From positions 26,105,398 to 26,169,397 of the forward strand of contig CP099841.1 in assembly GCA_030062745.1 (NCBI GenBank): 64,000 bases of DNA, written 5' to 3'. A program made the translations under genes and the position numbers. Below the pieces are notes generated by a model. It made no database searches. It worked only from the letters and a program-made list of their open reading frames with translations, and was not told where the DNA came from. How positions within the stretch are numbered: position 1 is the stretch's first letter; each line of letters opens with the position of its first letter. This DNA is from Capitulum mitella (lineage: Eukaryota; Arthropoda; Thecostraca; Pollicipedomorpha; Pollicipedidae). This document shows positions 12,827 through 61,580 of the stretch, one piece after another.

Positions 12827-12937
12827 GCTGGCGAACCATTCCCGGACGTGTTTGTCGGCCCCAGCCATGGTGTGGACAGAGTCGGTGAGGGCCACGGCCA
12901 CCACCCGCTTCCGCACCTCTTCCCATCTCTTCCTGAC
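12827..12937 (-). CDS. ARB2A: ARB2A-like exon 6
   Basis: Exactly 37 codons, acceptor 'ggtccgcag', donor 'gtgagt'. Encodes 'VRKRWEEVRKRVVAVALTDS' followed by 'VHTMAGADKHVREWFAS'. The next exon was not found. Confidence 0.92.
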
Positions 12938-15900
12938 CTGCGGACCGTGACGGGCTGTAGCGCGAGCCATCTGTTTCTTGATGCTGTTCCGTTATCGGGT
13001 CTGTCCATGTGTGACGTGGTCTTTCGGGTGCCTCGTCATCCAAGGCAAACATAAGAAACAGGTAAAATATGCCCACACAAAAAAGCAGCGACAGAACCAC
13101 GTGTTCAAATGATGACTGCGTTGTACCCAGTCGCCCATGATGAACTGCAACCATGGGCTATTGTTCACAGTCAAATATAACGGGAAAATACACCTACATA
13201 AACACCATCCGCGGCGTATTTGCACCGGTGCACAATGCAGCGTGCAAGGCTCAAGTGAAAAATATCGACAATAACTGCAATCGTACTGCATGTATCGGCA
13301 TGCAGCAATCTTATGTTTACAATTTAAGCATTAATATAAAATATCAAATATATAAGCATAAATATAAAGCATCATATTTACAAGCAATACACATGGCAAA
13401 TGATCCACAACTCAACTTCCACTGCAAATGAACCCACAGCGTAGCATTTAACACGATCTGCCAGCATAATTTTCTCGAATTAATATGGAATAGCCGACAC
13501 ATCAACATGCAGAACGACGGGGCGACGGCGCGCGAGCTCCATCTCAACACACGCTAGCGAAGCCCACCATCGGCAGGCACCACCGGGACCTGACGGTGGG
13601 GAGTGCGTGCTCACCAGATGGGCAGTGACCACGCCTCCATAGCTGTGAGCGACGATGGAGACATCCTTGGCCGCCGCCGGACGCACGAACGTGTCCCACG
13701 CGGTCAGCACGTGCTCCTCCGGACCACTGCTGCCCTGCAGGTGATTGGCGCGCCGGTGATCCCGCCGTCTTACGGCACAACACAGACCGGGACTACCGAT
13801 GGACGATCATACCAAGACAACGCACATGTCGAATGAGACATCTCGCATTAAAAAAATAGTCGTCGTGCCACACAATACCGGAAAATCCTTTGGCCTGTCG
13901 TAGGGCCATTTATAACCTCATCACCTATAACCATTCAACTCTTAACCTACCTGCCAGTAACCTATAACCTTTTGGGTTTTCGAGTATCAACGTCTGTTAT
14001 GGGTATCATCGTGTACACAAACGACCAAGTTGCATGTCCGTTTTTATATCGGTCTTACCCCATCAGGTTCTGAAACGTCTGGAGGGTCGTACCAATGCCC
14101 AATACACGGGGCCACATGGCAAACACTGGCGCAGGGACGTAGCCAAGGGGGCCATGGGGGCCATGGCCCCCTGAGCCAAGCGGTCTACACATATATGGCG
14201 ATTTGTTACGAATACGGAATAGAATATGGAATAGAACTTCCAACATATGTATGTTGGGAAAGCAAAACATTATATGTGTCCGTTAAATATGAGGTAAATT
14301 ATGTAAAACTGCTGCTTTGCCCTATAAATTTTGCCATATTCCAGTGGCATATGACGAAATCTGACATTTGGCCCCCCTCCCCGAGGAAAATCCTGGCTAC
14401 GTGCCTGCAATGGCGAGGGTTAAACTTACCCGCCTCGTAAACTGGCATCAATCGCCTCGTCATCATACGCAAGAGCATCAATTCAGTCGTGTCTACGTCA
14501 CCAGCCATTCACCCACCACCCACCCGGATGAACTGTTTCCGCTTGTTGTGGACGCGGTGGTTGTCATTTGTGTTCAGCACCAGCACACCGTACCCAGCAG
14601 CCAGAGCCCACTTCACATACGGCAGCTGAGTGCCCTCCTTCAGCCCGTTGTTGATGATCAGCCTGCAGACCACAGTGATATACCCACGGAGCAGACGACA
14701 TGACAAAACTACAATAGTCACAAATTAAAAATGCAGTATAACATGGTCCGACAGACATCAAGCAGCCCCACATGAAAAAATCCCATTTACATTACATTAG
14801 ATACCTATGGGACAAATTACTGGCCTTATGGTATCCATCCAAGTTGCAATCTTGGGAGCAGACTTTGAAGCTCTGCTGCCTCTGACCTGCAGCCCCCTGT
14901 CCCTGACTTGTGGTTCCCTGTCCCTGACCCGGAGACCCCTCCTCTGACCTGGGGCCCCTGCCTCTGACTTGCGGTCCCATGTCCCTGACCGGCGGACTCC
15001 TGTCTCTGACCTGCGGGCCCCATCTCTGACCGGCGGTCCCCTGTCCCTGACCCGGGGCCCCTGCCTCTAACCTGCAGGCACCACCTCTGACTGGAGGTCC
15101 CCTGCCTCTGACCTGTGGGCCCCATCTCTGACTGGCGGTCCCCTGTCTCTGACCCGCGGGCCCCTGCCTCTGACCTGCGGGCCCATTGTCCGGCTCGCAC
15201 TACGCCGGAGCCGTGTATCAGCAGCAGCAGACGGTCTGCGGCCGCGTAACCCGGACTGGCGAACACGAAGGTGGCCGGCTCGTCCGGGCCGGCATCCTCC
15301 GGCAGGGGGAGCCGCTGCAGGCCGCCCTCAGTCTCCAGCAGGCCGTAAACCTCCTCTGTAATCACCTGCGGACAGTGTAGCCCATCTGTAATCACCTGTG
15401 GACAGTGCAACTCCTCAGTAACTACCTGCAGTCAGCGTGCCTCCCTACTAACCACCCGCAGACAGCACACCTACCGAATAATCATTGGCACACAGCATAC
15501 TGCCTCAGTAACTGCCTGCCAAATGTGTACCTCCAGAATAATCACCTGCAGACAGTACACTTACTGGTCATGATGTTGATTGTGATGGTATCCATGGCTT
15601 TAAACTGGGGAACATCTGCCACCTATTAAAATGTTGACCTAAGGCAACTTATTAAAATGCTTACCTAAGGCAGTTACTAGATTTGATCCAGAGCCATGAT
15701 TCAAGTATACATATCTTGTACCCAACATTGCTCAAAACAGCATGGGCCACTGTGTGTGATGCATGGGAAAGCACTTGGACTATGCCATTAGTTTGGCTCA
15801 ACACCATTCACTCAAGACATATGAAAATATTGCAGTTGTAGGAAGAGATAAATCACAGGTCAGTAAAAGAAACTGTGTGCAAGGAGCAGGAAAACAATGG

Positions 15901-16847: not shown

Positions 16848-18643
16848 AGCCACACCTCAGCCTTCTGCAGTGCAACTAGGATGACCTGGAACAGATTATT
16901 CACCTCCATCAAAAATCACTAACCATTGTTGTTTCTTCTTTTATTCTCTGGAGCATCTCATTTAAGCTAATGCAAAATATGGGTCTTCAAGCCAGGGACT
17001 TCTAACAGTTTCAAGAGGCTATGTCATGATGCCATGTCATATGCCATAATGAATCTTCCCCAAAGCAGTGGACTCTGGATGGTCTATGAGGCACAGCTAC
17101 AGGTGAGGAAGTATTGGGCAAATAGGGCAACTGTCTTACAGCTATACTGCACAGCATAGCAGTATCTGATGGAACATATTAAGGAGTAATGTGCTCCTGG
17201 GTATCACCATCTGTGTGCCTAGGCATGGTGTGCTGTACAGCTCACGCCTTGCTATGCAAAATTCATTCTCAATTGCTCTTTACAGGTCAGTGATGCACAC
17301 TGTTAAATAAAAATACTCCCCTCTTTAATCAGTAATAAATACCAATTTTCTCCATGCTCCCAGATTATTTACCCTGTTCCTATTCCGTACCTGATCCAAT
17401 GAATAATACAAAACACTAGTGGGTTGCTTGGCAATCATGTTCTTAGATACATCATTGTAGGAACGCTTACAAAAGAAGAAAGCGAGGTGGGCTGGTCTGA
17501 GTAATGACAGGCTTGTGCACACGAGCAGTTCTCTTCCGTAAATGCAGTTATTATAACTATAAGACTGGCCAAATTCCAGCCTGTCTTTGGTATCGAACCT
17601 AAAACGGGTCCACAGATCGCGGAAATAAAAAGGCCACGGAATAAGTAAGCCTGCAGCCAGCAGGCAAGGGCCCGTTCGCCAGTGGCCCGCCTGAGTGAGA
17701 ACTGGGGCGACGCCACGAATTTTTGAATGTCGGGTAGTGCTAGGGGCGCAGCCCGGACGACGAGCTGTTGAACGGAGACATCCCCCATCCCCCCAAAAAT
17801 GGATGTCCCCGCGGATTTAGGCACGTATCTTACGATATCCGATCCTTGCAGAAAAAAAAATTGTCGGTTATCTGGCCGAAAAGACAGCAAAACTGGCAAT
17901 CATCTCACAGACAACTGCGTTTTACATAGCAAGGCAAACTGCCTACTTTGCTCTTCACCACATGTTTTCGCAAATTTCTCCTCCTCGGAGCAACAGCCAG
18001 ATTTCCATGATCTCTTTCATGACAGCAAACGTCGTCGCACTATATCCAAAGGTAAATTTCCCTCGCAAAATGACGTCATAAAATTTTGTCATACTGTGCA
18101 CCAGATGTCAGACCTCTATCGAAGTCGGGCAGATAATCGTCACGCATCAGCCAATTTCGTAAACTGGCAAAACTTCCAAAATGCCTCTTATTTCACAAAT
18201 CTAAGAGCCAATCGTATCCTGCACAATATTTCTCCTCACGAGTTACGATTATTATGGGGTACTGGGTATACGCAGAACCTCACAATCAAATAACTGTGGG
18301 ATGCTAGTACCCCACGTGCACCACACGGTGGCGCCGCCCATGCGTGAGAGGCCCGGAAACCAAAGAGCCGTTGGTTAGCGACGCGCAGCCCAGGGCCCGC
18401 ATGCCAGAGGGGCCGTGGGCCAGAGGTCCGTAAGCCAAGGGGCCCGTTAAGACCTCTCCTATAAGTACCCAAAGAGCCCGCAGGCCAGGGGCCCGTAAGT
18501 CATCCAGGATTCGCAGGCTAGGGCCCGTAAGTTAGGGGGCTCGTTGGTTGGGGGTCTGTGGCTAGCCAGGGGCCCGCATGCGTGAGACCGGTGTCACTCC
18601 GGATCTTCGCGGGCCGGAAGTCCGTAGGCGAGTGGTCCGCAGC

Positions 18644-19377: not shown

Positions 19378-19536
19378 GTAGTCCAAGAGCCCACATGTCA
19401 GAGGGGCCCGTGGCTCAGGGGGTCGTAAGCCAGGGTCGTAAGCCAGGATAGTAAGCTGGGGCCGTTTGTTCCGGACCTGTAGTCCAGGGCCGGGTCATCG
19501 GTTAGTGGCCCGGCTGGAGTCGCTTTAATCCACGGG

Positions 19537-19568
19537 CAATATATATACACACACACACATATATATAT

Positions 19569-19602
<34 letters not shown>

Positions 19603-19628
19603 ATGTGTGTGTATATACACGTGTGTGT
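19537..19628. repeat. Self-complementary (AT)/(CA)/(TG) microsatellite
   Basis: Order: AT, CACACA, long AT with two TG interruptions, TGTGTG, ATACACGTGTGTG. The block can fold on itself and lies near the symmetry centre (about 19555) of the inverted-repeat element. Confidence 0.9.
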
Positions 19629-23578: not shown

Positions 23579-23647
23579 ATGAATTTAGAAGTCTGGCCAG
23601 GTGACTGGGGCCTTCCATCTGTGGACTCAAAATGTCTGGAGACTCTG
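23579..23647 (+). CDS. MTX1: Metaxin-like exon 1
   Basis: 23 codons from the ATG at 23579 to a 'gtgaga' donor, phase 0. 'GDWGLPSVDSKCLETL' matches the metaxin start 'GGWGLPSVD..'. The Met is placed as in human metaxin-1. Confidence 0.92.
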
Positions 23648-26600: not shown

Positions 26601-29600
26601 CATTATTGCGAGCCATACGGCTGTGTTGCATGGTCTGTCACCTTCCCCTCCTCCTTTTCCGGCAGGTGGGTAGATGCAAAGAATAGCACCGAGCTAACGC
26701 GCAAGTGGTACGCTTCCCACCTGCGCTTCCCGCTCAACTTCTACTACCCCAGCGTGTGGGAGGCGGCCGCCAAGAAGAAGCTCGAATCCGTCTGCGACTT
26801 TGACGCTAGCGCCAGCGCAGTAGAGGCCTACGTAAGGAAAGAACCTCCTTGACTGTGTTTTGGTGTTTTGAGTGATGTTTTGGAAGCCTTCCTGGGACAG
26901 CGTGTCTAGTGGGCTGTGAAACGTGGAAACGGTATGTTGTAAATCTTAAATCGTGATATTTTAACGGTTGCACTTTGCAATTCCACCGGAGCTGGATTGC
27001 TAGTGTGCGGTTTGTACCTTCATCTCAGACTGGCCTTGATCCCAAGCTTATTGGGACAAATTAAGGTTGAACTAACACCGATGTGCTCCTGTCTGCCTGG
27101 CCTATGCCAGTGTTTTTTTTTTCGGCGCTGTAACGCCAGAAGCAGAGACCGTAGTGTGGCACTGACAGATAAACCATTACCTGACCCGCCCCGGTCCGCT
27201 CTGCAGGTGTAATGCTGAAAGAGCAGACCCCACGGTTAACCCTGACACAGGACGAGCCGGTCCTTGACCCGTCCCGGCGCCGCGCTGCAGGTGTGACGTC
27301 AGAGGAGAAGACCCGACAGTGTAGCCCTGACATAGGGCGAACCAGTTCCTGACCCGTCCCAGCCCGCTCTGCAGGTGTAACGCCAGAGAAGGAGACCCCG
27401 AAGTATAACACTGACACGGGAGGAGCAGCCCCGTATCCGTCCCAGCCCGCTCTGCAGGTGTAACGCCAGAGGAGGGGACCCCGCAATATAACACTGACAC
27501 GGGAGGATCAGCCTCTGATCTGTCCCAGCCTGCTCTGCAGGTGTAACGTCAGAGGAGACCCCGCGGTTTGGCACTGACATGGGAGGAGCAGCCCCTTATC
27601 TGTCCCAGCCCGCTCTACAGGTGTAACACCAGAGGAGGAGACCCCGCGGTATAACACTGACACGGAAGGAGCAGCCCCTGATCTGTACCAGCCTGCTCTG
27701 CAGGCGTAACGCCGGAGGAGGAGACCGCACAATGTAACCCATACACGGGACGAGCCGCTCCCTGATTCGTCCCACCCCGCCCTGCAGGTGTAACGTCAGA
27801 GGAGGAGACCGCACAGTGTAACCCGTACACGGGACGAGCCGCTCCCTGATTCGTCCCACCCCGCCCTACAGGTGTCACGCCATAGTAGGAGACCGCACAG
27901 TGTAACCCATACATGGGACGAGCCGCTCCCTGACCCGTCCCACCCCGCCCTGCAGGTGTAACGTCAGAGGAGGAGACTCCGCAGTGTAACCCATACACGG
28001 GACGAGCCGCTCCCTGACCCGTCCCACCCCGCCCTGCAGGTGTAACGTCAGAGGAGGAGACTCCGCAGTATAACCCTGACACGGGACGAGCCGCTCCCTG
28101 ACCCGTCCCACCCCGCCCTGCAGGTGTAACGTCAGAGGAGGAGACTCCGCAGTATAACCCTGACACGGGACGAGCCGCGCCCTGACCCGCCCCACCCCGC
28201 CCTGCGGGTGTAACGTCGGAGGAGGAGACTCCGCAGTGTAACCCATACACGGGACGAGCCGCGCCCTGACCCGTGCCGGCGCCTCCCTGCAGGTGTGCCG
28301 ACGAGCCGACGAGTGTTTCGCCACGCTGTCGGAGCAGCTGGGCGAGAGGGACTGGTTCCTGGGCGGCGTGCCCTGCTCGCTGGACGCGCGCGTGTTCGGC
28401 TACCTGGCGCCGCTGCTGCGCGCGCCGCTGCCCAGCGCCCGCCTGCAGACCCTGCTCAAGGCGCACCACAACCTGGTCAGCTTCGTCACGCGCATGCAGC
28501 TGCGCTACTTCGCCAAGGAGTACGCAGGTGGGTAACGGTGTTGCCTCTGTGTGCCCTCCGGGCGTGGGGTGTTGGACTGGGTGCAGGGTTGGACTACTGA
28601 CGTGTGTTCGTCGTATCGCGGTTGTTCCGACTGGGCAAAGCTTACGGGTGGACTCTGTTGGGTTATTTGGCATGCCAGATGTTTTTGCATGACGCATTTG
28701 AGCGACTTTTCCTTCCCAGAATTTCAGCCCCTGCTCACATTCACATTTCCGTCATGTTGAATAGTGCATTATTGTATGCTTCCATCAACATCGACACTGG
28801 TTCGCTCACCTTGTTTTGATCGGTAAACAGTCCTCCGTTTGACGGAATGCTAGTGGTAGCCGCTTGTCGTCATAGGTCGCTGTTGTTCAGGCTTGAGTGA
28901 CACATGTGGAAATCTGCCACGGGGCTCGCTCGCAAGGTCCGGGAATGACGCGGGCTGTTTTGAACTGAATAGCAAGGGTTGTTTGGGCGACGAAGAATGA
29001 CTGCGTTCGACAACATGCGTTCCAACGTGCGTTGCCTTTTAAGGACGTCTTGAGGATTTTCTTCTTCATTCGTGTATCGTCATCAGTGAGGTGGGGAAAT
29101 AATGGAACGTAGAAACGTTTTATCTCACGTTGTAACTCCTGACACCGGTCTAATGAAGCAGCCGCTCCCAAACTTCCCTGGCGGTGTGGGAATTTTCTGT
29201 AACTCTGCAAACTGACTATGTTTCTGCACTGGAGGCGTCTTCAGGCCGATGCGGCCTGTCGTGAGCGTTGTGTGAAGTCTGACGTAGTCTGGAGTCTGAC
29301 GTGGTCTGGTGTTGAGGCCGTCTGCAGGGAGCCCGTGGAGCCCCACGTGGCTTGGTGTAGGACGGGCGCTCTGTAGTCTGACGTCGTAGTCTGGAGTAGC
29401 CGCCGTGTGTAGTCTGACGTAGTGTGGCGTGGGGGTCGTCTGCAGGTGGCCTGTGGGGCTCCACGTGGCTGGGTGCGGCCCCGCTGTGGGGGCGGGCGGA
29501 CTGACAGCCGGACCGAGAGCCGATGGGTGCCGGTGGGTGGAGGCCGGCCCAGTTAAAGGTCACCCCCGTCAGCCGGCCCGACCGTCACTGCCCCGGGCCG

Positions 29601-30410: not shown

Positions 30411-33361
30411 ATATATATCGAGACTGTGGCCGTGCAGATGGCTGATAGTGTGCGGCTTGTGTTATAATGCCGCAAAACGTCATTGTTTATCTCCCATGAC
30501 CTTGCCCAAGGTTATTGTTGGTCAGATTTGTTGTGGGTCAAATTCATTGTAGGTGAAGTTTGTGTAATTGGTCTCTTACGATTGTATTGGCCATCACATG
30601 ACTTAATGTCGCCCCTGACCCTCCTTGTTTGATTGGCGTATATTGGCATCCTTTGCATGCCATTTTACGTTGCGTTGCCTTAGGATAAAGGGTATACGAT
30701 TTGTATGCAAAAACGGCATATTTCAAGTTGTCTAAATATGGCCGCTTGATGTGAATTGTGATCAAAGACAACTTTTAGGTCCAAAGATGTGGCATGTTCT
30801 GGGTCGCATCATCGACAGCATTCGATTGCCGTTTGAACCAGCCGCATGGATCCATTGGTTGCCGCATTGTCGAGTGGGGACGTCTGACCCTCTTCCCTCA
30901 CAGACTCACTTCACTAGTTTCTGGATGATGTCGGTGGGATGTTTTTGGGAATCACTTGACGCTGTTGTTATTCTTGCGCTCCTTTGACGCAGCGACTGTG
31001 GCTTGGCATCCGCCCACAACGATGTTCGTGGGTGCTGATAAAAATTGTGGTGTCATCCATTATCGAGCTTTGTGTTTCATTTCGAGTGTTTTATTGTACC
31101 CAAGCCAGCAGGTCAGACATCTCCTGAAGTGTTTCGTAAATCCGCTGGTGTGACGCCGTCCACTCCTGTCCACCAGAGCACGAGGCTGAGCAGAAACGGA
31201 GGCGCCGCCGGCCGGCCGGCCGCCGACGCCGCCGTCACGGAGGAGGACGCCGAGTTCCCGAACAAGCGGCGCAACCAGCTGCTGGCCGCCCTGGTGGCCG
31301 CCGCCGCCACGCTGACGTTCGCCCTGGCCAGCGGCATAGTCAAGGTGGGCCACCGTCCGGTACATAGGGCAGGCATAGAAAAGGTATGCTGGACGGTGCG
31401 GGGATTAGGCATGACGAAGGTGGGCTGTCAGCGACATATCAAGGAGGGCTGCCGTGCGATACAGAGGTCAGACTCAGGAAAGGTGTGCTGGACGGTACAG
31501 CGATCACACGTAGTCAGGGTGGGCTGTTAATGAAGAGATCTCCCGTAGCCAGGCTAGGCTTCTGGACAGTGCAGAGATCAAACATAGTCAAGATGGGTTG
31601 CTGAACGGTTCAGAGGTCAGACATAGTCAAGCTAGGCTTCTGGCATCGCATCAGTACAGAGATCACACTCAGTCAAGGCGGGTTGCTAGACGCTTCAGAG
31701 TTCAGAGATCGTCAAGGTGGGCTGCTGTACGTTACGGACAGACGTAGTCATGGTGGGCTGCGGGACGGTACGGAGATTGGACACAATCATGATGGCCTGC
31801 CGGACGTCCAGAGATTGGACACAATCATGATGGCCTGCCGGACGTCCAGAGATTGGACACAATCATGATGGCCTGCCGGACGTCCAGAGATTGGACACAA
31901 TCGTGATGGCCTGCCGGACGTCGAAAGCCATGGACGTGGTCAGGATACGCTGGCGAACGGCACAAAACTGTTGGGCAAGTGGAACATCGGCAGGCTCGGA
32001 CATTGGCACGGCAGTCGCTGTGAACCTCAGGCGTGGTCACCGGGGAACGTCTAATTAGAAACCGCAGGACTGGTGGAACGCGGTCATGGCGAAGGCTGCC
32101 CGGGAATGCAGGAATAACAGTCATAGACATGGTGAGTTGGCAGGCCGAATACGGCTGTTCGTAACCAGAAACAAGGATAAGGTGAAGGGCAGAACAGCAG
32201 AAAGCTGGGAAGGTGAAGGACTGTGGGCCGGCGTGAGAGGGGCAGTCATAGTTTGGGGACGCCGCTGCCTATCAGTCAGCGTGCTCGCCTCTGGAACTAA
32301 ATGGTCTAGCGCCGCAGACGGCGGGACTTCGCCTCCCCGCGACAGCCGGCTGCGATTGAGATTACAGCGCGAAATAGCCCGACAGTCGAAAGCGTTGACA
32401 GATATGCTAGCGACCAGCGGACGGTCACGTGATAAGCTGCTCAGCGGCGCAGTTTAGACCCGGCTAAAGCGGCCGCCGCGCAGTTGAGGCCAGCCAGGAA
32501 GCACAGTCACCGCGAGGCGGCCATGGGTGTGAGTTCCGCGAGCGTCACCGTCGCGGCGGCGGCCGGCAGCGGCGCCGCGCCCTGTCGGCGTGACGGCCGG
32601 TCGTGGCGCCAGGAACCCCCGCCGCCTGTGTCGTCAGCCGGCCGACGGCGCGTCATCGGTGGCGTCCCGCTGACCTTTGGCGGCGCGCTGCCGCGTGCGA
32701 CGCGGCCGGTGCCGGCGGCTCCGGCGGTCGGCCGCCGCCGCCAGGTGCTGGCGGGGTCCTGCCCCGCAGGCGGCCGGCAGGGGGGTTCGTCGGGGTGGCT
32801 GGTGGGGCCGCGGGCTCCGTGTTAGGTAGATGGTTTTTATCCGCGATGTTCGCAGTATGGTTTGTGTGTGCAGCGGCTTAAGAAATTTACGGTGACGATC
32901 TGAATCACTTCGACTGTGATTGTCACCAGGGTTTCGATGGTCCTGCAGCTGCATGGCGTTAGTGGATCGTTGTGGTTACATAACTTGTCCGTGAAGGCAC
33001 ATCGCTCTTGTTCTCTAAAAGAGCCGTTACTCGTGAATCGATCTCTGGTGAACGTGGCCTATTTGTCGTGCTACCGGCGGAAACTTGGGCACTTTCCTGT
33101 CGTCTCGGGAAATGCAGGCGTCTGTGTTGAGCGTCCTGGACCCAGGTGCGGTCATGCTGGCCTGGAGGGTGCTTTTATTTGCAGCCGTCCTGCCCGGTCA
33201 GGTGTCTGGTTTGAACTGCGTCCGACCCTGCCTGGACCGACCCTCTCTAGACGGTCTGACTGAGTGACTGAGTGACTGAGTGACACCCGGGCGCGCCCCG
33301 TCCCCAGATCGAGAACCTGGAGCCGGACGACTTCGAGCTGTCCGAACTGGACGCCGACTGA
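23579..33361 (+). CDS. MTX1: Metaxin-1/3-like mitochondrial outer-membrane protein (seven coding exons)
   Basis: Exons 23579-23647, 25125-25271, 26296-26399, 26666-26831, 28293-28531 (or -28527), about 31179-31344 and 33308-33361 give a product of about 310 residues, the family length. The N terminus 'WPGDWGLPSVDSKCLETL' and 'FPVLQDGDTKLTSFEDI' match the metaxin thioredoxin/GST-N-like fold. 'RQCADSLAFTNLLQDRLEPAL', 'ELTRKWYASHLRFPLNFYYP' and 'FLGGVPCSLDARVFGYLAPL' match its GST-C-like helices. Exon 6 encodes a hydrophobic tail-anchor segment (about 22 residues, 'LLAALVAAAATLTFALASGI'), and exon 7 an acidic tail. Metaxins belong to the SAM/MIB beta-barrel assembly machinery and face the cytosol. 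Exons 1-3 are AT-leaning and exons 4-7 extremely GC3-rich. Two of its introns carry splice-site-derived minisatellites. Confidence 0.92.
24332..24967. mobile_element. MITE-like element in metaxin intron 1
   Basis: The left end 'cagtggtgcacccagga' and the complement of the right end 'gaggtgcatccacagg' form imperfect inverted ends. Inside are GGCC-rich degenerate repeats ('aggcctgctggggcc', 'caggccaacacagggcc'). No coding capacity. The boundaries are approximate. Confidence 0.45.
25125..25271 (+). CDS. MTX1: Metaxin-like exon 2
   Basis: 49 codons, acceptor 'tttgcag', donor 'gtatca', phase 0. Encodes 'AFMKICGAEVQIIEANNPL', 'SREFPVLQDGDTKLTSFEDI' and 'LIYLKKK', the second half of the thioredoxin-like domain. 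Confidence 0.93.
26296..26399 (+). CDS. MTX1: Metaxin-like exon 3
   Basis: 104 nt, acceptor 'cccgcag', donor 'gtcagt', exits in phase 2. Encodes the 'DSLAFTNLLQDRLEPALWLC' helix corresponding to 'DTLAFMSLLEEKLLPVL' in metaxin-1. Confidence 0.92.
26666..26831 (+). CDS. MTX1: Metaxin-like exon 4
   Basis: 166 nt, acceptor 'ccggcag', donor 'gtaagg', exits in phase 0. Encodes 'WVDAKNSTELTRKWYASHLR', 'FPLNFYYPSVWEAAAKKKL' and an acidic linker. GC-rich codons begin here. Confidence 0.93.
27115..28292 (+). repeat. 84-bp minisatellite carrying the metaxin exon 5 acceptor
   Basis: The acceptor-like motif 'ctgcag|gtgt' recurs with its T at 27202, 27286, 27370, 27453, 27536, 27616, 27699, 27783, 27867, 27951, 28035, 28119, 28203 and 28288. 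Spacings are 84 bp, with a few 80-85. The final one is the true 3' splice site. Each unit also repeats the preceding C-rich tract. A degenerate first unit starts near 27115. In most copies the bases after AG read GTG TAA or GTG TGA, an immediate stop in the exon frame. Confidence 0.95.
28293..28531 (+). CDS. MTX1: Metaxin-like exon 5
   Basis: Acceptor 'ctccctgcag'. Encodes 'RRADECFATLSEQLGERDWF', 'LGGVPCSLDARVFGYLAPLL' and 'LLKAHHNLVSFVTRMQLRYF'. There are two possible donors: 'gtgggt' after 28527 (phase 1) and 'gtaacg' after 28531 (phase 2). Only the latter joins exon 6 in frame. The acceptor is the last of 14 tandem copies. Confidence 0.88.
29260..29500. repeat. Imperfect repeats in metaxin intron 5
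   Basis: Short motifs recur imperfectly: 'gtctgacgtagtctgg' and 'gtctgcagg...gtgg.gc.ccacgtggct' (near 29320 and 29440). This looks like a decayed tandem duplication of about 125 bp. No coding sequence was seen. Confidence 0.5.
30343..30418. repeat. (AT)n-(GT)n microsatellite
   Basis: Long AT run with a short GT tract and a terminal AT run, within metaxin intron 5. Confidence 0.98.
31179..31344 (+). CDS. MTX1: Metaxin-like exon 6 (membrane anchor)
   Basis: Ends in phase 0 at 'gtcaag|gtgggc'. Encodes 'EEDAEFPNKRRNQLLAAL' and the hydrophobic anchor. The start is uncertain. The strongest acceptor-like site (31175-31176) would enter in phase 0. The AG two bases further on (31177-31178) fits a phase-2 exon 5. 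A small extra exon between the two is also possible. Confidence 0.82.
31335..31960 (+). repeat. 38-bp minisatellite carrying the metaxin exon 6 donor
   Basis: About sixteen degenerate copies of a unit of about 38 bp resembling 'catagtcaag|gtgggctgc'. They start with the exon 6 donor itself (31344|31345). Later donor-equivalent positions are near 31383, 31419, 31443, 31482, 31517, 31552, 31592, 31631, 31677, 31716, 31752, 31791, 31829, 31867, 31905 and 31943. Several keep a GT at the donor position; the last block of 38-bp copies is nearly identical but has 'atg' instead. Confidence 0.9.
33262..33291. repeat. (GACTGAGT)n short tandem repeat
   Basis: About 3.5 copies of an 8-bp unit shortly before the exon 7 acceptor of the metaxin-like gene. 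It does not include the acceptor. Confidence 0.9.
33308..33361 (+). CDS. MTX1: Metaxin-like exon 7 (C-terminal acidic tail and stop)
   Basis: Acceptor 'tccccag', 17 codons 'IENLEPDDFELSELDAD' and TGA at 33359-33361. The acidic tail resembles the acidic end of metaxin-1. A GCC/CCG trinucleotide run follows immediately in the 3' UTR. Confidence 0.85.
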   Translation: MENLEPDDFELSELDAD

Positions 33362-36005: not shown

Positions 36006-38200
36006 ATGTCTGTCAAGACAGCCCACGCTCAGCCCACGGTCAGCCCGAACTCGAGACCCATTTAAAATCGCCCAAAACGCGTTAGGAGATAAATGTTGAC
36101 TAGCTGAGCTCATTGGCACCATCAGACGTCCATCGCATCTGTTACTTTGCACTCCAGAGCACAAAACACAAAACACCACAAAAATACGACGGAGACAATC
36201 GTACATCAAAACCCCCACAAATAGGTACTCAAAATGTTCGTCTCGGACCGCTGAGTCTAAAAATGCAGCACACAACACATTTTAATCATAACATTTTGAG
36301 TTAGTACGAAAAATAACCGTTTTTTTGCCCTATGCTTTATTTCCCATTGGATTTAACATGGGACCCTATGGAACTGATTTTGGCGGACCCCTTCGATTTC
36401 GCCAATTTCTTCTACACTAATACCCAGAACCGTCATACACACGAAACCATCATCAGAACTCCATCGCATTGATATCCACATGGTCAAATCGGGCTCCAAA
36501 AGATATACGTCAAAAACACATTTTTTAATATTATTGCAAACCTAGGCAAACAGGTACTCAAAATGTTCCTCTTGTGCCGCTGAGTCCAAAAATAGCGCAT
36601 TAGTAACATTTCGACGAAAACTTTTTGAGTTATAGCGAAACGAAACCGTTTTTCTACCCTATGCTTTATTTCCCATTGGATTTAACATGGGACCCTATGG
36701 AACTGATTTTGGCGGACCCCTTCGATTTCGCCAATTTCTTCTACACTAATGCCCAGATCCGTAATACACACGAAACCATCATCAGAACTCCATCGCATTG
36801 ATATCCACATGGTCAAATCGGGCTCCAAAAGATATACGTCAAAAACACATTTTTTAATATTATTGCAAACCTAGACAACAAGAACCTCAAAATGTTCCTC
36901 TTGTGCCGCTGAGTCCAAAAATAGCGCATACGTAACATTTCGACGAAAACTTTTTGAGTTGTAGCGAAACGAAACCGTTTTTCTACCCTATGCTTTATTT
37001 CCCATTGGATTTAACATGGGACCCTATGGAACTGATTTTGGCGGACCCCTTCGATTTCGCCAATTTCTTCTACACTAATGCCCAGATCCGTAATACACAC
37101 GAAACCATCATCAGAACTCCATCGCATTGATATCCACATGGTCAAATCGGGCTCCAAAAGATATACGTCAAAAACACATTTTTTAATATTATTGCAAACC
37201 TAGCCAAACAGGTACTCAAAATGTTCCTCTTGTGCCGCTGAGTCCAAAAATAGCGCATACGTAACACTTCGACGAAAACTTTTTGAGTTATAGCGAAACG
37301 AAACCGTTTTTCTACCCTATGCTTTATTTCCCATTGGATTTAACATGGGACCCTATGGAACTGATTTTGGCGGACCCCTTCGATTTCGCCAATTTCTTCT
37401 ACACTAATGCCCAGATCCGTAATACACACGAAACCATCATCAGAACTCCATCGCATTGATATCCACATGGTCAAATCGGGCTCCAAAAGATATACGTCAA
37501 AAACACATTTTTTAATATTATTGCAAACCTAGACAACAAGGTACTCAAAATGTTCCTCTTGTGCCGCTGAGTCCAAAAATAGCGCATACGTAACATTTCG
37601 ACGAAAACTTTTTGAGTTGTAGCGAAACGAAACCGTTTTTCTACCCTATGCTTTATTTCCCATTGGATTTAACATGGGACCCTATGGAACTGATTTTGGC
37701 GGACCCCTTCGATTTCGCCAATTTCTTCTACACTAATACCCAGAACCGTCATACACACGAAACCATCATCAGAACTCCATCGCATTGATATCCACATGGT
37801 CAAATCGGGCTCCAGAAGATATACGTCAAAAACACATGTTTTATTATTATTCTAAACCTGGACAAACAAGTACTCAAAATGTTCCTCTTGTGCCGCTGAG
37901 TCCAAAAATAGCGCATTAATAACATTTCGACGAAAACTTTTTGAGTTATAGCGAAACGAAACCGTTTTTCTACCCTATGCTTTATTTCCCATTGGATTTA
38001 ACATGGGACCCTATGGAACTGATTTTGGCGGACCCCTTCGATTTCGCCAATTTCTTCTACACTAATGCCCAGATCCGTAATACACACGAAACCATCATCA
38101 GAACTCCATCGCATTGATAGCCAAACGGTGGAACTGGGCTCCAAAGAAAATGGGTGAAAACCACACTTTGTAATCTGCTTCCAAACTGGCCCAAGCCATG
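36006..38200. repeat. Left terminal inverted repeat with 329-bp tandem array
   Basis: Terminal module 36006-36327, then units whose 'ccctatgctttatttccc' marker falls at 36328, 36657, 36986, 37315, 37644 and 37973, exactly 329 bp apart. The last unit diverges after about 38119 and fades out near 38200, directly before the adenosine-kinase-like segment. Copies differ at only a handful of positions. Confidence 0.95.
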
Positions 38201-43984: not shown

Positions 43985-44681
43985 GGGGACACTGGAAATT
44001 CCAGATCTTGCGTCCCTTAGTCGCTAGTCTCAAGGATCTGCTCATTATTTCGAAGCGGCAACAATTATAGAGAAACTCAGTGTTCAGATGCAAGGCTGTG
44101 ACTAGCAATACACCGAAGAATAGAGACCACAGGGTCATGAAACTGGTCATCCGCTTTGCTAAGCCGGATTTCGCACTTTGTTGATTATATCATCATTCTG
44201 GTTCCCAAAACAAAGCTATTATTTTCTTCGAATCCAAAGCTATTGTTAATGACCAGAATCACGATAACCGGAATCATGACTTTCAAAGGCGACATAGCCA
44301 GGTGGCCAAACATTTTGATTGCTTTCCAAGTTTCCGGCCGTCCCACGGTGTTCCGTTATCCCACTTTTTGAAGCATATTTAGTAGAAAGGAGAATCAGCT
44401 GTTTTCTCATGGGGAAAACCATCGGCAATTCGCACCACCCTATAATATCCGCCATGTGTAAGGTTTCGCTCTCTTCGGCTGTTAGAGATCTAGTACTAGT
44501 GAAGCCGAAGCCGAAACCATTGGCCTCTTTACTTAGACTTGATTAATCACAGCCCTGTAGATCTGAGCCGTTCCTGGGGTTCATGTTCATGTGAGTTCAC
44601 GGCTATGAGAAAATATGTACAGGGTGTGAATGACTCACATAGTATCGACACGTAAAAATGAGGCCAGTTTAAGTGCCAGCC
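43985..44681. other. MULE subterminal region upstream of the transposase
   Basis: Noncoding stretch between the transposase start and the right repeat array, the expected place for the transposase promoter. No specific element was recognised. Confidence 0.5.
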
Positions 44682-45926
44682 AGCGGCACAAGAGGAACAT
44701 TTTGAGTACCTGTTTGCCTAGGTTTGCAATAATATTAAAAAATGTGTTTTTGACGTATATCTTTTGGAGCCCGATTTGACCACGTGGATATCAATGCGAT
44801 GGAGTTCTGATGATGGTTTCGTGTGTATTACGGATCTGGGCATTAGTGTAGAAGAAATTGGCGAAATCGAAGGGGTCCGCCAAAATCAGTTCCATAGGGT
44901 CCCATGTTAAATCCAATGGGAAATAAAGCATAGGGTAGAAAAACGGTTTCGTTTCGCTATAACACAAAAAGTTTTCGTCGAAATGTTATTAATGCGCTAT
45001 TTTTGGACTCAGCGGCACAAGAGGAACATTTTGAGTACCTGTTTGCCTAGGTTTGCAATAATATTAAAAAATGTGTTTTTGACGTATATCTTTTGGAGCC
45101 CGATTTGACCATGTGGATATCAATGCGATGGAGTTCTGATGATGGTTTCGTGTGTATTACGGATCTGGGCATTAGTGCAGAAGAAATTGGCGAAATCGAA
45201 GGGGTCCGCCAAAATCAGTTCCATAGGGTCCCATGTTAAATCCAATGGGAAATAAAGCATAGGGTAGAAAAACGGTTTCGTTTCGCTATAACTCAAAAAG
45301 TTTTCGTCGAAATGTTATTAATGCGCTATTTTTGGACTCAGCGGCACAAGAGGAACATTTTGAGTACCTTGTTGTCTAGGTTTGCAATAATATTAAAAAA
45401 TGTGTTTTTGACGTATATCTTTTGGAGCTCGATTTGACCATGTGGATATCAATGCGATGGAGTTCTGATGATGGTTTCGTGTGTATTACGGATCTGGGCA
45501 TTAGTGTAGAAGAAATTGGCGAAATCGAAGGGGTCCGCCAAAATCAGTTCCATAGGGTCCCATGTTAAATCCAATGGGAAATAAAGCATAGGGCAAAAAA
45601 ACGGTTATTTTTCGTACTAACTCAAAATGTTATGATTAAAATGTGTTGTGTGCTGCATTTTTAGACTCAGCGGTCCGAGACGAACATTTTGAGTACCTAT
45701 TTGTGGGGGTTTTGATGTACGATTGTCTCCGTCGTATTTTTGTGGTGTTTTGTGTTTTGTGCTCTGGAGTGCAAAGTAACAGATGCGATGGACGTCTGAT
45801 GGTGCCAATGAACTCAGCTAGTCAACATTTATCTCCTAACGCGTTTTGGGCGATTTTAAATGGGTCTCGAGTTCGGGCTGACCGTGGGCTGACCGTGGGC
45901 TGAGCGTGGGCTGTCTTGACAGACAT
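44682..45926. repeat. Right terminal inverted repeat with 329-bp tandem array
   Basis: Inverted counterpart of the left end. A partial unit from 44682 is followed by full units; the marker 'gcataggg' lies at 44928, 45257 and 45586, 329 bp apart. The terminal module then runs 45594-45926. It has fewer units than the left side, and one extra 'gctgaccgtggg' 12-bp subterminal repeat. Confidence 0.95.
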
Positions 45927-49880: not shown

Positions 49881-49881
49881 C

Positions 49882-56000: not shown

Positions 56001-59000
56001 TGTCCCGCCTATGTTTCAATTTGTTCTTTGCCTGCTACCAGGCAACCATCAAAGACACCGACAATAAGCCAGTGGAAAAGCATATCGTCGAGGTCTGCTA
56101 TACCGCAACGTCCAGAGGCAAGAGGGATAATGCCATAATTCCCGGATTCCGCTCTTCGTGAGTTATCGTTTTAATTCTCCCTTTGTGATGCATGCCAGTC
56201 AGGGAGTTGTCTCCGTTTCAATTGACTGCAGCTTTTCTGTTCGTGCATTGGTCATCACAAACGACGCATTCGTAAGTGCATAACGTGACACAGTCTTTTC
56301 GTGTATGGTATACATTATACCTCTCCAAGTCTCCATTTTTTTGGGTCTGTTAGGCAGGAAACTGCATCACAAGTCTTCTCCTTTGTCGGCGCAACACTAT
56401 AGGAAAACAACTCACTCGCCGCAATCATGCATAACAGAGAATATGTTGCTTCGCAGTTGTATTCAGTTGTATTCGTTCCTAAGGGCTCCTCCATACAGTG
56501 GCTCTTAGGGTCCAGTCAGTGCAATATAAGGACATAAAACGCATCCGGCATTATAAAATACTCCCCTCCCGCACCACTCAGCAGCTACCGTCTTCGTGGA
56601 GCCTTTGCATGTACGCGCTTTAATTACAACTGCGACTGACTGCACTTGAGTAGGCACGTGCGCAGCTTCGTAGAGGTGAGGCACGGGCTTCGGCCAGCCG
56701 GGCCGGTGGTGTGCAGCCCACCAACTGTGCCCGTGACTGCGCCTGAAGCCAAGGCACTGATATGTGGTCGTGGGCCGTGCCGGTAGGCCTGACGGAGGCG
56801 CCGCGCTGGCCAGCCCCAGCTTCCGCAGGCTGCCCATCATCATACCGCCCGATCCCGGCAACACCATCTCCTCCAGGGTCTGTCGCGAGTACACCAGCGA
56901 CGAGAACGGCCGCATCAAGTACAGAATCCCGGGCCTCGATCTGGGCCTGCTCCGGGTCTCCATCAACGTACGGTCTCTCTCTCTCTCCCTTTCTCTGTCT
57001 CTCTCTTCCGGTCTCTTCACCTTTTTTTCTTTGCCTTACTTTTGTTGAAATTTGGGAGACATACCGCGCAGATATTCTTTTGTTTCGGAACAGAAGTGGC
57101 AAGGTGTCCGTTTTCCGAAACATGAGGTACATATGCCGACATTTTAGTGCTATCGGCTGCTGTTAAATGTTCTTCAACAACAGCCGTCAAACTGTTACAA
57201 AACAAACAAAAATTCGCCTGTTTTTTTTTTTTTAATTGAGCAAACCTCGAACTTTCTCACAGATGAGACCAAAGCGGACTGGCATCGGCACTTCATCTGG
57301 ATATCACAACCTTAGAGTATGGTTCTCGCCGACAAATTCCTTTATCTCGGTCGACCCGGTGACAGATCCCTTTGACCTGAAGTGCAGCGGATTCCTGGAC
57401 ATGAAGATAACGACGACATTCCCGAGGTCGAACAAGCAAATAACTTATATGGTATGTTGATGGAAGTGAACTGATATAATGAGCCCCGTTGAGAGTGAAC
57501 GCAAGTCAGTATGGACTTGGCCAATGTGTGTAACTGATTTGCTAGGAATGACAGGGTTTACGGCACTTTGTATAATACGCAATCGTAAAATGGCCTCAGT
57601 TAAAAGCCACTTTATCAGAAGACGTCATGGGAAGTAAGTGCAACGCTGGAAACATTTCAGCTTTAGTGTAACAAAAACACTGCCAGCTAACGCAAGACCA
57701 TGGTATTCACGAAGACTGTCTTGTTTCAGATCATGACTCGAGGTCAGATTATTCGCATGGGGCTGGTCGGTGCCGACGGAATAATCAAAATTCCTCTGGC
57801 CTTCGACGTGTCGCCTGTTTTCAAGATCCTTGTTTACCACGTTAACACTCAGGGCGAAATCGTTAGCGACTCCAAGACGTTCGAAGTCGCCAAATGCTTC
57901 CAGAACCAGGTACGCGATGACTGTGCGCTCCTTGCGACTTCCTGGGACCCGCCGGCGACAACGTACTCCAGTTTACGCCCTGATGAACCAGAATCCCAGT
58001 CGATTTCATCGCCTTTTGGCTTTTGCTCTGATTCGGTACTGGATCCATTTTGCACTGTGAGCAAACCGTTAGGGGGACAAAATGCAAAAGGTGAACACCA
58101 GGTCCAGAGAGATGTAGTTTTTTCGAGGTCAAATGTCGTATGGTAGGTGGTAACTTTGTAGAGACACAGCTGTTCCGTTCCAAGCTGACATTTCGGTATG
58201 ATCGCGCGACATTTTGTCAGCCAGGTCAGCAAACAATCGACGGGTTTGAGAAAGCAGCGTCTCCAGAACGCCAGCGGGCCCTACATCCTTGATCCGTGAA
58301 GAATCATCCACAAAATGGAACCAACAGTGAATCAGAGCGCAAGTCTGCACCCGACGACAAGTCTCCCAGTCAGGCGATGACGAGCCGCCCAGCCCATTCT
58401 TATTTCCCAGCTCCCACCAGTCAGGCAAACGCTGTCCACTGCACTTTGTCAGCAGTCCTCGCCCGCCTCGACACCACGTCCTGTCCGCTCCACCCCGCTC
58501 CGACGGCACTCATCCGCCCCACTCGCATCTCTTCCCATCTCACTCCACTCCGACGACGGCACTCCTCGTCCACCTCAGCCCACACCTCTGGCACTTCTCG
58601 TGCGTCCACTCGCGTCGGCGGCCCCCTCGTCCTGTCTGACGCCACCCCGGTGACGCTTCTCATCCCACCTCCACCGATGCGAGCTCCAAGCTCCGGCTGC
58701 AAGCCCCGAGCCCCGGCACTGCTCTTTCACCCCGAGCCGGGCGGGCTAGCTAGGAGCCCTTTGCACCGGAGGCCGTTCGCAGCACCCTTAGCGCCGGTGG
58801 GCAAACTACAGAAGACTGACACGCCAATCTGTCTTCAGGTGCGCGTCTCGTGGGACCGGAAACAGGTGCAGCCAGGCGAGACGGCCACGTTCACGGTTAA
58901 GGGCGCCCCGAACTCGCTCTGCGGTGTCTGTGAGTTCTTTTGTTGCCGTGTGGTGACAGGGATGGACTGAGGGGTCCATCCACTTCGGACTCAGAAATCC

Positions 59001-61451
59001 ATGGAGCCATTTTTCCAACTCATAAATATTTCGGTTTTGTACCGAAGTTTTGGCTAATCGTCTTTCAAGGTCATAATCACAATATTTGTGTACGTCATCC
59101 TGTATTTCAAATTTCATCCTTCCGATCCCAACATTTTCCCTCCAAGCGGTTTGGCCGTTCAAAAACAGTCGGTTGCATCCGTCCCTGTGCTTCTAAAAGC
59201 TCTATGTGCAAAGCATCTGGTAGAATGTACCGCGGCTGGTGGCTGGAAGGCGAAGACTGACGCCTTCTCAGTACCTGATACACGATTCCCACAAGCAGTT
59301 TTAAGCTTGTCACGACTGGTTCACTTTAGAGGGTATCCGTTGTAGCGAGGTTCCTGAGGTGGGGCCCCATGTGGTACGTCCGTTCTCCCCAACGGCAGCA
59401 CTGCTGGCGGTTTCACTCACGGCGCGACGCCGGCTCCTGCTTCCTTGCAGCCGCTGTGGACCGCAGCGTGGAGTTGTTGAGCAGTGCCAACAAGCTCACG
59501 GCTGAAAGCGTCTTCAGCAAGCTGCAGCGCTTCGTCATTCCCACTTATGCCCACCCGCGACTGGTGAAAAGCCCGAACGAGTATTGCAAGCGCAAGCCGC
59601 TCTTTGCGAGACCATCGTTCTTCGAGGCAATCAGTTTTCCCGCGCAGCCACCGGTGGCGCCGGAGGATGACAGACCTGGGTGAGTCGCTGTTCGGAACAG
59701 ACGCATCGGTATTAAAACGCACTTTAGTGGGCCTAACAGACATTTGGGCCAGTGTGGTTGGTTTTGTTAGTTTCACACGTATTACGAACAAACTCCATAC
59801 ATTCCAATAAAAATAAGAATCAGAGGCGGCTCCAGCGCAGTGTTAAAGAGAGTATTTCGTTTCTTCTTAGTCATGAAAAGCTATTATTCAGTTTACGATG
59901 TAGAAGGTTGCTCCATTTTTGTGGCAACTGGATCCGCCTGTTGGACGTTGTCATAGAAAATCGGCCTCTTCCTAACATATATGATAGACCAATCAGTTGT
60001 TGGCAGAATGGCGTGAATCAGAACAGAATCGGTCTATAATGAGATGTGGTCAGGGACTTCGTGTAAATAAACCCTTATGTATGCCCATATTTCGACACCC
60101 TGTCCCCTTTTTAAAATTTTCAACATTTCTTGTTTCAGAAATGCAGAATTCGCTGCATGCTATCGGACAATTATTTCCGCTAGAAAATCGGACAAATAGT
60201 TTTCGAGGTCGCGAGGAGGCAGAATCTGACCCCCACAGCACGGAATTATACGTAGCGGACAGGAGCACGGATTAAACAAGTCTAATACCCAAGGCTTGAA
60301 CTGAAGAATTAGTTATCTACACTAAGTAAAGTTAATTAGGTCGACCATGAATGAGGAAAAGCTGTTCGGTAATCTGCGTCAATTTTCAGAAGGATCGTGC
60401 CGCCACCTCAACGAAGAGAATTTTATTACGTTGTCCATGAAGACGATGCTATCAAGGCATTTGACGTAAGTACAATTTTCATGAGCATCGCGTCTTCAGA
60501 CTTTTTTTGATTCTCTGTCCTGGATGTTCATTGTATCTTGAGATGAAGCTTCTTGCTCCAAGTTGTTCCCACTTGGAATATACAGATCCTCATCAGGATG
60601 ATGCATGTAAAGGAGGCAAAAACGCAGTATCAAATGCGCAATGTATCACAAAACCAAAGTGCTTGTCTTGGATATCTGGAATAATCAACATTTATTTTGT
60701 TTGCATTCGAAATTTATCGTCTTTTGATGTTGTTTTGTGAGATATTCCTTTATCTCTGTTCTCTCCATCTTTATTACATTTCAAATATGCCAGAATGACC
60801 AAAGGTGTGCATTCATGTAAAGCGCATGCCTACGCAAACACCCGCGCGTAATATCGCAAAAGATAGAGACTCCAGCTGGCGTCCACTTAATGCCACTGTC
60901 GCGAATTTCTCAAAACCTCACGACGTCCCCGTTCCAGTGCCAATGTGATCGAACAAGCCCATCTTAAAGCCTTTACAAAGCCCCTAAGCTGCTGCAGACG
61001 TTGCCTGGTCTCCGACCGTCCGTCTGACGGCGGGCCCACCACTCCCGGCCTCGCCGGTGTCCAGCTGCACCTCCTCTCTGCGGGAGAGCGCGGCAGTTAC
61101 GGCGGCGCCGCTTCTCCGCGGCGTGCGGCGAACCTGACGCGGCCGAAAACGCGCGCCGTTGCAGGTGGCAGGCTACCTCCCGCTGACGAACCTCGTGCTG
61201 GAGACGCGGCCGTGCGAGCGTAGGAACCGCACGGTCTGTCGGTTTTGCTACCCGTCGAGAGGACGAGTCGTTAGAGGGTTCGTGCACCAGAGACGCATGC
61301 TCAAGGCGTCGGGTGCCGCGGAGGCTGCCGTCGGCCTGGATGACGCGGATGCCGCGTCGAGCGCGCAGGTCGCGCCGCCGTCGGCGCCCGTCCAGCAGGC
61401 GATACGCTCCTTTTTCCCGGAGACGTTCCTCTTCCAGCTGGAGGGTCTGGG
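49938..61451 (+). CDS. Alpha-2-macroglobulin / thioester-containing protein-like gene, 5' part (17 exons)
   Basis: Seventeen exons join without a phase conflict to about 980 residues of a secreted A2M/TEP-family protein. It starts with a signal peptide ('WLGIWLPLLASLVGVASPAY'). MG1 follows ('TTPKVLTAGTTERFCVTFYN'; 'KSSCFDVPIP'). MG2 carries the hallmark 'LVQTDKTKYKAGQLVQFRV', and MG3 has 'EVDEFVLPRFEVKI'. MG4 has 'VYVEANVTESGTGLTESG'. MG5/MG6 show 'MTRGQIIRMG', 'VYHVNTQGEIVSDSKTFEV' and 'AVDRSVELLSSANKL'. A bait-like variable stretch and 'FFPETFLFQLEG' (entry to MG7) end the last exon. The thioester, CUB and receptor-binding parts lie beyond the window, so I cannot tell whether the GCGEQ thioester is present. 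Such proteins act in the haemolymph as protease traps or complement-like opsonins. No anaphylatoxin-type Cys-rich insert was seen, which argues against a C3/C4/C5 type. Confidence 0.93.
51858..52036 (+). CDS. A2M-like exon 2 (MG1)
   Basis: Acceptor 'cacgacag', donor 'gtacgt', enters phase 2 and exits phase 1. Encodes 'GFLLTTPKVLTAGTTERFCV', 'DDSAHLAVHLLPKQNSTVAQ' (with an N-glycosylation sequon NST) and 'LMRFSRTFDASGI'. Confidence 0.88.
52492..52604 (+). CDS. A2M-like exon 3 (end of MG1)
   Basis: Acceptor 'tgctcttcag' chosen because only it keeps phase 1. Donor 'gtaagc', phase 0. Encodes 'QKSSCFDVPIPRKITQTRPY' and 'LRASVLSGFFASTKTSP'. Confidence 0.8.
52923..53048 (+). CDS. A2M-like exon 4 (start of MG2)
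   Basis: 42 codons, acceptor 'gccccag', donor 'gtgagt'. Contains 'LVQTDKTKYKAGQLVQFRVV', the strongest family signature ('QTDKPIYKPGQ.V.FR'). Confidence 0.95.
53313..53429 (+). CDS. A2M-like exon 5 (MG2)
   Basis: 39 codons, acceptor 'cacgtag', donor 'gtcagt'. 'VDQIFITTPGNTRLAQFDKV' and 'GIIQKTFQLTNEPPL' match the 'I.I.DP.GNRI.QW' segment of MG2. Confidence 0.92.
53793..53965 (+). CDS. A2M-like exon 6 (MG2-MG3)
   Basis: Acceptor 'gctgaccag', donor 'gtaagt', exits phase 2. 'GKWTIHVKRGDSFTRQTFEV' and 'DEFVLPRFEVKITGPKFI' match the 'F.VEEYVLPKFEV' boundary of MG2 and MG3. Confidence 0.95.
54478..54595 (+). CDS. A2M-like exon 7 (MG3)
   Basis: 118 nt, acceptor 'gccgcag', donor 'gtcagg', exits phase 0. 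'YTFGKPVTSAAVKMRVKRSG' matches the 'Y.YGKPV.G.V' segment of MG3. Confidence 0.92.
54666..54690. repeat. (CA)n microsatellite in A2M-like intron 7
   Basis: About 12 CA dinucleotides. Confidence 0.97.
54870..54953 (+). CDS. A2M-like exon 8 (MG3)
   Basis: 28 codons, acceptor 'tttttccag', donor 'gtaagc'. Encodes 'TGKDGCVEVDVLMVKIGL', corresponding to the 'G...FEV.L' turn of MG3. Confidence 0.85.
55462..55611 (+). CDS. A2M-like exon 9 (MG3-MG4)
   Basis: 50 codons, acceptor 'tctgaccag', donor 'gtgagt'. 'VYVEANVTESGTGLTESG' and 'TFIKPKLEYIGY' match the 'V.A.VTE.GTG' and 'FKPGLPY.G' hallmarks. Confidence 0.95.
56042..56157 (+). CDS. A2M-like exon 10 (MG4)
   Basis: 116 nt, acceptor 'tgctaccag', donor 'gtgagt', exits phase 2. 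'ATIKDTDNKPVEKHIVEVCY' matches 'V.V...DGKPV....V.V'. Confidence 0.9.
56814..56967 (+). CDS. A2M-like exon 11 (MG4-MG5)
   Basis: Acceptor 'tggccag' (a second AG six bases on, 'ccccag', would also keep the phase), donor 'gtacgg', phase 0. Encodes 'DPGNTISSRVCREYTSDENG' and 'RIKYRIPGLDLGLLRVSIN', matching the 'T..G...Y.IP' segment. Confidence 0.88.
57263..57451 (+). CDS. A2M-like exon 12 (MG5)
   Basis: 63 codons, acceptor 'tctcacag', donor 'gtatgt'. 'HNLRVWFSPTNSFISVDPVT' and 'FDLKCSGFLDMKITTTFP' match the 'SPS.SYL.I......L.CG....V' region. Confidence 0.92.
57730..57909 (+). CDS. A2M-like exon 13 (MG5)
   Basis: 60 codons, acceptor 'tgtttcag', donor 'gtacgc'. 'MTRGQIIRMGLVG', 'SPVFKILVYHV' and 'GEIVSDSKTFEVAKCFQNQ' match 'SRG.I', 'P...LL.YYV..NGEIVADS' and 'CF.N.V'. 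Confidence 0.95.
58296..58760. other. Pyrimidine-rich intron sequence in the A2M-like gene
   Basis: C/T-rich, weakly repetitive stretch ('ccactc.catctc', 'cgacggcactc') in intron 13. It keeps one plus-strand frame open for about 220 codons, but the translation is low-complexity Pro/Ser/Thr with no family match. Not treated as an exon. Confidence 0.6.
58839..58929 (+). CDS. A2M-like exon 14 (MG6)
   Basis: 91 nt, acceptor 'gtcttcag', donor 'gtgagt', exits phase 1. 'WDRKQVQPGETATFTVKGAP' and 'NSLCGV' match the 'PG..V.L.V.A.P.SLCG' signature. Confidence 0.93.
59451..59679 (+). CDS. A2M-like exon 15 (MG6)
   Basis: 229 nt, acceptor 'ccttgcag', donor 'gtgagt', phase 1 to phase 2. 'AVDRSVELLSSANKLTAESV' matches 'VD.SV.LL...N.L....V'. 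Confidence 0.93.
60390..60465 (+). CDS. A2M-like exon 16
   Basis: 76 nt, acceptor 'ttttcag', donor 'gtaagt', phase 2 to phase 0. Encodes 'RIVPPPQRREFYYVVHEDDA' and 'IKAFD'. Phase fits exons 15 and 17, but the sequence is less conserved. Confidence 0.75.
61165..61451 (+). CDS. A2M-like exon 17 (bait-like region)
   Basis: 287 nt, acceptor 'ccgttgcag', donor 'gtgagt', exits phase 2. 'GYLPLTNLVLETRPCERR' is followed by a basic stretch and an Ala/Asp/Ser/Pro-rich low-complexity segment, where the protease bait lies in A2M proteins. It closes with 'IRSFFPETFLFQLEGLG', matching 'R.FFPETWLW'. Confidence 0.92.
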
Positions 61452-61580
61452 GTGAGTCGGCAGGCCATCTGCAGCTGTACGGAGCAGATCGGGGTGAGGT
61501 GGCGTCCGCCGCAGATGTGTGAAACAGATTAGGGTGAGACGGGGACGGCCGCAGGTGAATGGAGCAGACCGGGATGAGAT
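61443..61580 (+). repeat. Short repeat carrying the A2M exon 17 donor
   Basis: Four degenerate copies of a unit of about 40 bp. The true donor 'g|gtgagt' (61452) is followed by 'ggggtgagg' (GT at 61494), 'agggtgaga' (61534) and 'gggatgaga' (61573), with 'cagat' or 'cagacc' preceding each. The similarity is weaker than in the other splice-site arrays. Confidence 0.6.

Follow-up and report, generated by a model that had tools for sequence, protein, structure and literature searches.

Why do several minisatellites in a 64,000-nucleotide (nt) stretch of the genome of the barnacle Capitulum mitella (the window) repeat the splice sites of the exons beside them, and does this call for a mechanism that acts at exon-intron junctions? 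A true junction lies inside four tandem arrays of the window identified with Tandem Repeats Finder (TRF), each of which also holds 4-16 nt of coding exon. They cover the acceptor and the donor of ARB2A exon 3, the acceptor of metaxin-1 exon 5 and the donor of metaxin-1 exon 6 (Table 1). Quite probably these are minisatellites of the kind called 'mirages' in amphioxus, formed by local tandem duplication and tolerated at junctions, with decoy splice sites that are mostly passive.

Exons were placed by homology, using tblastn with human ARB2A and MTX1 and, for the A2M-like gene, with the barnacle proteins P0001 and P0002; barnacle ARB2A and MTX1 protein alignments were also used to set exon ends. 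Splice sites were scored with a generic weight matrix. The ARB2A of the window is closest to Pollicipes (78%) and Amphibalanus (75%) proteins, and the A2M-like protein to those of Chelonibia (47%) and Amphibalanus (42%). The original prediction, made from the letters of the window, counted five arrays that begin or end exactly on a junction, out of about 60 junctions. Our junction set comprises the 50 junctions of 25 introns and, in addition, the donor of A2M exon 17, with some A2M ends and the metaxin exon 2/3 ends approximate. Four of the five arrays stand by TRF and homology, giving two duplicated acceptors and two duplicated donors, and the fifth, at the A2M donor, is weak. The arrays do not stop on the junction, since they run into the exon by 15, 10, 4 and 16 nt. 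Among the barnacle ARB2A and MTX1 records aligned, only P0110 and one odd record, P0090, have insertions at these junctions.

Table 1. Positions of the exons and junction-spanning arrays in the window, followed by arrays at sampled loci elsewhere in the genome (bp, base pairs)
Feature	Position	Strand	Basis
21-bp array over ARB2A exon 3 donor	14876..15184	-	TRF (14882-15184)
ARB2A (FAM172A) exon 3, VITEEVYGLLE...GQWAR	15175..15365	-	tblastn with human ARB2A, splice scan, barnacle alignment
30-bp array over ARB2A exon 3 acceptor	15351..15560	-	TRF 15351-15429; probe matching to about 15560
84-bp array of 13.4 copies that reaches 4 nt into metaxin-1 exon 5	27180..28296	+	TRF score 1178
Metaxin-1 exon 5 (VCRRADECF...YFAKEYA)	28293..28527	+	tblastn, splice scan, MTX1 alignment
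Metaxin-1 exon 6 (transmembrane helix, ...FALASGIVK)	31177..31344	+	tblastn, splice scan
Compound array of 99, 85 and 38 bp repeating the exon 6 donor region	31329..31922	+	TRF, three neighbouring rows
Metaxin-1 last exon (exon 7), IENLEPDDFELSELDAD-stop	33308..33361	+	resembles Amphibalanus and Pollicipes C-termini
A2M-like exon 17 (count of the original prediction; 16 exons located)	61165..61451	+	frame-consistent joining; tblastn with P0001, P0002
Weak 40-bp array at the A2M exon 17 donor, three diverged copies	61444..61564	+	lag-40 identity 53/92
CCT-beta acceptor: 55-bp array, 34 nt of exon included	L039		
CCT-eta donor: 35-bp array, 21 nt of exon included	L044		
Kinase acceptor: 44-bp array, 2.2 copies, 10 nt of exon included	L036		
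Neighbouring CCT-eta intron: G-rich unit of 27-28 bp, about 42 copies, starting 4 nt past the real donor	L044:4944-6046		

ARB2A exon 3 carries an array at each end. Its acceptor (CAG/GTG at 15366/15365) and donor (CAG/GTCAGA at 15175/15174) are both aligned without gaps to the relatives shown, P0110 excepted. The last copy of the 30-bp acceptor array holds the exonic 15 nt, and probe matching finds five more copies of at least 60% identity, at -30, -60, -90, -150 and -180, with AG kept in four of the five. The two nearest of these decoys are open and in frame on translation, for 10 and 20 additional residues. The idea that the unit is a copy of the first 30 nt of the exon throughout is weak: past 15 nt the nearest copy matches at 8 of 15 positions, a level reached by 1.7% of the window 15-mers tried. 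The 21-bp donor array has about 15 copies alternating in a roughly 62-bp pattern, and the 10 exonic nt in its first copy encode W-A-R. GT is kept in all 14 later copies listed by the probe. These donor decoys score from -2.5 to 2.9, with the real donor at 2.9, and the decoy at +21 is open and in frame.

Metaxin-1 is likewise affected at two exons. In the exon 5 array the acceptor AG before GTGT is kept in nine of ten copies of a junction probe, and the decoys score up to 4.5, five of them at that value, compared with 3.6 for the real site. Four of the five decoys translated give a valine and then an immediate stop in the exon 5 frame. In the Pollicipes metaxin-1-like record P0090, the residues of exon 4 are missing and exon 5 is preceded by about 18 residues that match poorly; it looks as if a gene predictor had used a decoy acceptor. 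The compound array begins within exon 6, whose donor is AAG/GTGGGC at 31344/31345, and GT is kept in two of its four probe copies (+372 and +408). Exon 6 is taken to end at GIVK because the barnacle relatives go on with IE...DAD, which is present as an exon at 33308.

The three arrays tested are without dispersed copies. Neither metaxin array has a match elsewhere in the 477-Mb, 16-contig genome (the query for the 84-bp array was its exon-proximal part), and only two weak partial matches turn up for the ARB2A donor array, in a search that passes over simple repeats and very common words. Because of this, the units were probably born locally.

An independent sample from elsewhere in the genome was built on exon matches to five Pfam families (kinase, SNF transporter, TCP-1, myosin and kinesin), in about 170 kb plus three kinase loci. 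After 11 of the 114 introns called were excluded for a negative splice score, 103 introns (206 junctions) were kept; five neighbouring exon pairs yielded no splice pair, and only pairs within 25 profile positions of each other were considered. Compact genes are favoured in this sample, and P450 and AMP-binding genes, which were also searched, are excluded from it. TRF arrays contain three of the 206 junctions, and an array that starts 4 nt past a fourth repeats its donor. The acceptors are those of L039 and L036, and both donors are in L044. The predicted recurrence of tandem duplication across exon-intron boundaries in unrelated genes thus extends to genes outside the window. AG is kept in 10 of 11 copies in CCT-beta and in 0 of 1 in L036; in the probe listing GT is kept in 13 of 13 copies of the 35-bp CCT-eta array, and the 28-bp array of L044 has the donor-like site GGTCAGAGGG in nearly all copies. 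The exon part of the CCT-beta array, QLIYNYPEQLF, is identical at 11 of 11 residues to the best solved CCT-beta, and that of the CCT-eta array is LRHTHAQ, compared with LRARHAQ in solved CCT-eta. Because these parts match solved structures, the coding sequence is the older part of the arrays; the conserved exon sequence in CCT-beta, CCT-eta and ARB2A (WAR) must therefore predate them.

Arrays of this kind are described in amphioxus (lancelet), where mirages are reported in Adh3, troponin C, the globins BflGb6 and BflGb9, and PGBD5, with splicing undisturbed and length unstable, and where intron gain has been proposed (PMC3087553, PMC3902484). The anatomy as reported there is the same, namely a duplication that spans an exon-intron boundary at a donor or an acceptor, with AG or GT kept in many units, and by this match the barnacle arrays would be of the same kind. 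The differences are the host, an array size that reaches about 42 copies in a CCT-eta intron, and the counting of arrays over a defined set of junctions. In intron gain by tandem genomic duplication, AG/GT is reported to be copied, and the intervening sequence can be removed by splicing (PMC3443670). There a new intron arises inside an exon, whereas here existing introns lengthen at their ends. Among the titles and abstract openings of the open-licence literature searched, none describes such arrays in a barnacle or another arthropod.

The proposed origin is simple. A short segment holding an exon end and its splice site would be tandemly duplicated by chance, by slippage or unequal exchange, and expanded later. 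The copy touching the exon would still make a correct splice site, and the remaining copies would turn into intron with decoys that are mostly passive. Junction-spanning arrays would survive because the exon-proximal copy still splices. We infer that such a duplication is nearly neutral, and that among the many seeds supplied by introns rich in minisatellites some land on junctions and survive.

Several findings weigh against this origin by chance and tolerance. All four strong intronic arrays of the window touch a junction, where 0.81 would be expected (P 0.0008), and the point estimate in the sample is 1.8-fold over expectation. A duplicated exon start is present in one Amphibalanus record, P0110. 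At least one decoy is as strong as the real site in seven of the eight arrays probed (the A2M donor gave no copies). This bears out the predicted ladder of decoy splice sites, and complete silence of the decoys therefore needs another explanation. It is easy to imagine that exon definition ensures the right donor choice; this is less obvious for acceptor ladders, in which the real site is the last in the row.

The clustering in the window would be expected if junctions were hotspots, where AG/GT microhomology, R-loops at splice sites or replication slippage at exon edges start duplications. The ARB2A exon 3 acceptor, which is seemingly duplicated in Amphibalanus too (39 nt compared with the 30-nt unit here, in a protein record only), points the same way. 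Overlap was judged against a null of seed placement with 6 nt of slack, which was our own choice. Uniform placement of whole arrays, which expected 5.1 of 14 arrays on junctions (4 observed), was set aside as a null, since an array grows out of a single seed while its flanks are unmoved, and the place of the seed alone counts. At a score of 50, five of the seven window arrays touch a junction (1.12 expected, P 0.0007), one of them a TC-rich tract that merely abuts it; before metaxin intron 6 was added the count was four of six (P 0.0065). Because the window was picked for the pattern, these P values do not amount to an independent test. In the window, TRF rows were joined when separated by up to 60 nt; in the sample, only when they overlapped. 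At base level, repeats cover 3 of the 50 window junctions (6.0%) compared with 14.1% of intron interior, at a match level of 18/24.

The independent sample argues against hotspots. Five of its 19 arrays (period at least 10, score at least 50) touch a junction, compared with 2.77 expected (P 0.13), and one of the five (L052) merely abuts. Stricter settings give 4 of 13 arrays compared with 2.29 expected at a score of 80 (P 0.18), and 4 of 12 compared with 2.19 at a score of 100 and a period of 15 (P 0.16). Repeats cover 13 of the 206 junctions (6.3%), 8.3% of intron interior and 2.6% of exon interior, a ratio of junctions to intron interior of 0.76 (confidence interval 0.35-1.54, 103 introns). 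The ratio is lower still at stricter match levels, 0.40 at 19/24 (6 of 206) and 0.15 at 20/24 (2 of 206), and an earlier version with 77 introns has no coverage peak at junctions either. In 17 kinase loci none of 20 one-sided junction calls touches an array, although three of the donors are shared with the intron set and several calls are of low confidence. The excess from which the original prediction derived a mechanism or selective tolerance is therefore not supported here, and overlap no higher than expected, which it had named as the outcome that would count against it, is what this small sample gives. A roughly 1.8-fold excess is compatible with a sample of this size, and hotspots are an unlikely explanation of the arrays.

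A role for the decoys in tuning splicing or extending exons in frame, with the ladders kept by selection, is more doubtful again. The open, in-frame decoys at both ends of ARB2A exon 3 are consistent with it, as are the repeat units of the human IFI6 (6-16) minisatellite, where downstream units are reported to be used as splice donors (PMC4526556, citing Turri 1995). As in that report, tandem units carrying donors lie beside an exon, donor use being reported there and the donors here being candidates. The Amphibalanus amphitrite ARB2A record P0110 has VITEEVYALPLPK and then VITEEVYALL exactly at the exon 3 acceptor. Its insert is an in-frame 13-residue tandem duplicate of the exon start that P0109, the other Amphibalanus ARB2A, lacks. 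The duplicate may reflect a decoy read by the gene predictor, and is presumably present at the acceptor in the underlying DNA, a hint that decoys can matter in splicing. The pattern scan of protein records, 120 of the 751 ARB2A relatives among them, finds the duplicated motif in no record beyond P0110. The stops behind four of the five metaxin decoys also argue against selected ladders, as do the 55-nt CCT-beta and 35-nt CCT-eta units, with which use of the nearest decoy shifts the frame.

From the ARB2A exon 3 acceptor ladder and the in-frame duplicate in P0110, it can be suggested tentatively that in barnacles some minisatellites over a junction persist for long, or arise repeatedly at one junction in different genera, and that in-frame acceptor decoys lengthen exons. 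If true, junction minisatellites would be a standing source of change in exon ends and protein length in arthropods. An artefact of annotation or assembly, with exon ends elsewhere or arrays misassembled, is very improbable, given gapless homology over both ARB2A junctions (P0110 apart), a metaxin last exon in place, frame-consistent A2M joining and the recurrence of the pattern in chaperonin genes that were matched to solved structures.

The A2M exon 17 donor (GG/GTGAGT at 61451/61452) is a weak case of the same pattern. Its best 40-column stretch has 28 matches, above all of 1000 shuffles (maximum 26), but of 658 stretches tiling the window, 25 reach the 28-match level. At this donor no probe copy is found at 60% identity, and no TRF row starts there at a score of at least 30.

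If the sample is typical, arrays sit on roughly 2% of the junctions of this barnacle (3-4 of 206). They would offer many natural tests of how the spliceosome settles on a single site when its neighbours are equal or stronger, and of whether new exon ends or introns arise from tandem duplication at the edges of exons. They are also a warning to gene annotators, as array-bearing junctions can be mis-called.

Other repeats of the window lie away from these junctions. Two 329-bp tandem arrays (36217-38145 and 44681-45703), with consensus units that are reverse complements by eye, flank an open reading frame at 44023-40478 on the minus strand; its 1181-residue frame has an Ulp1-type protease domain (Pfam PF02902). 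Together they resemble a large DNA transposon whose sub-terminal repeats are tandem and inverted. More strong minisatellites, at 3707-3981 (45 bp), 5240-5528 (32 bp) and 7946-8431 (46 bp), lie in GC-rich sequence with no gene assigned. Elsewhere in the genome, many of the best-scoring PF00067 matches of P450 genes span nearly the whole profile in a single open frame and many of these genes are intronless, unlike the sampled chaperonins, kinesins and myosins, which are intron-rich.
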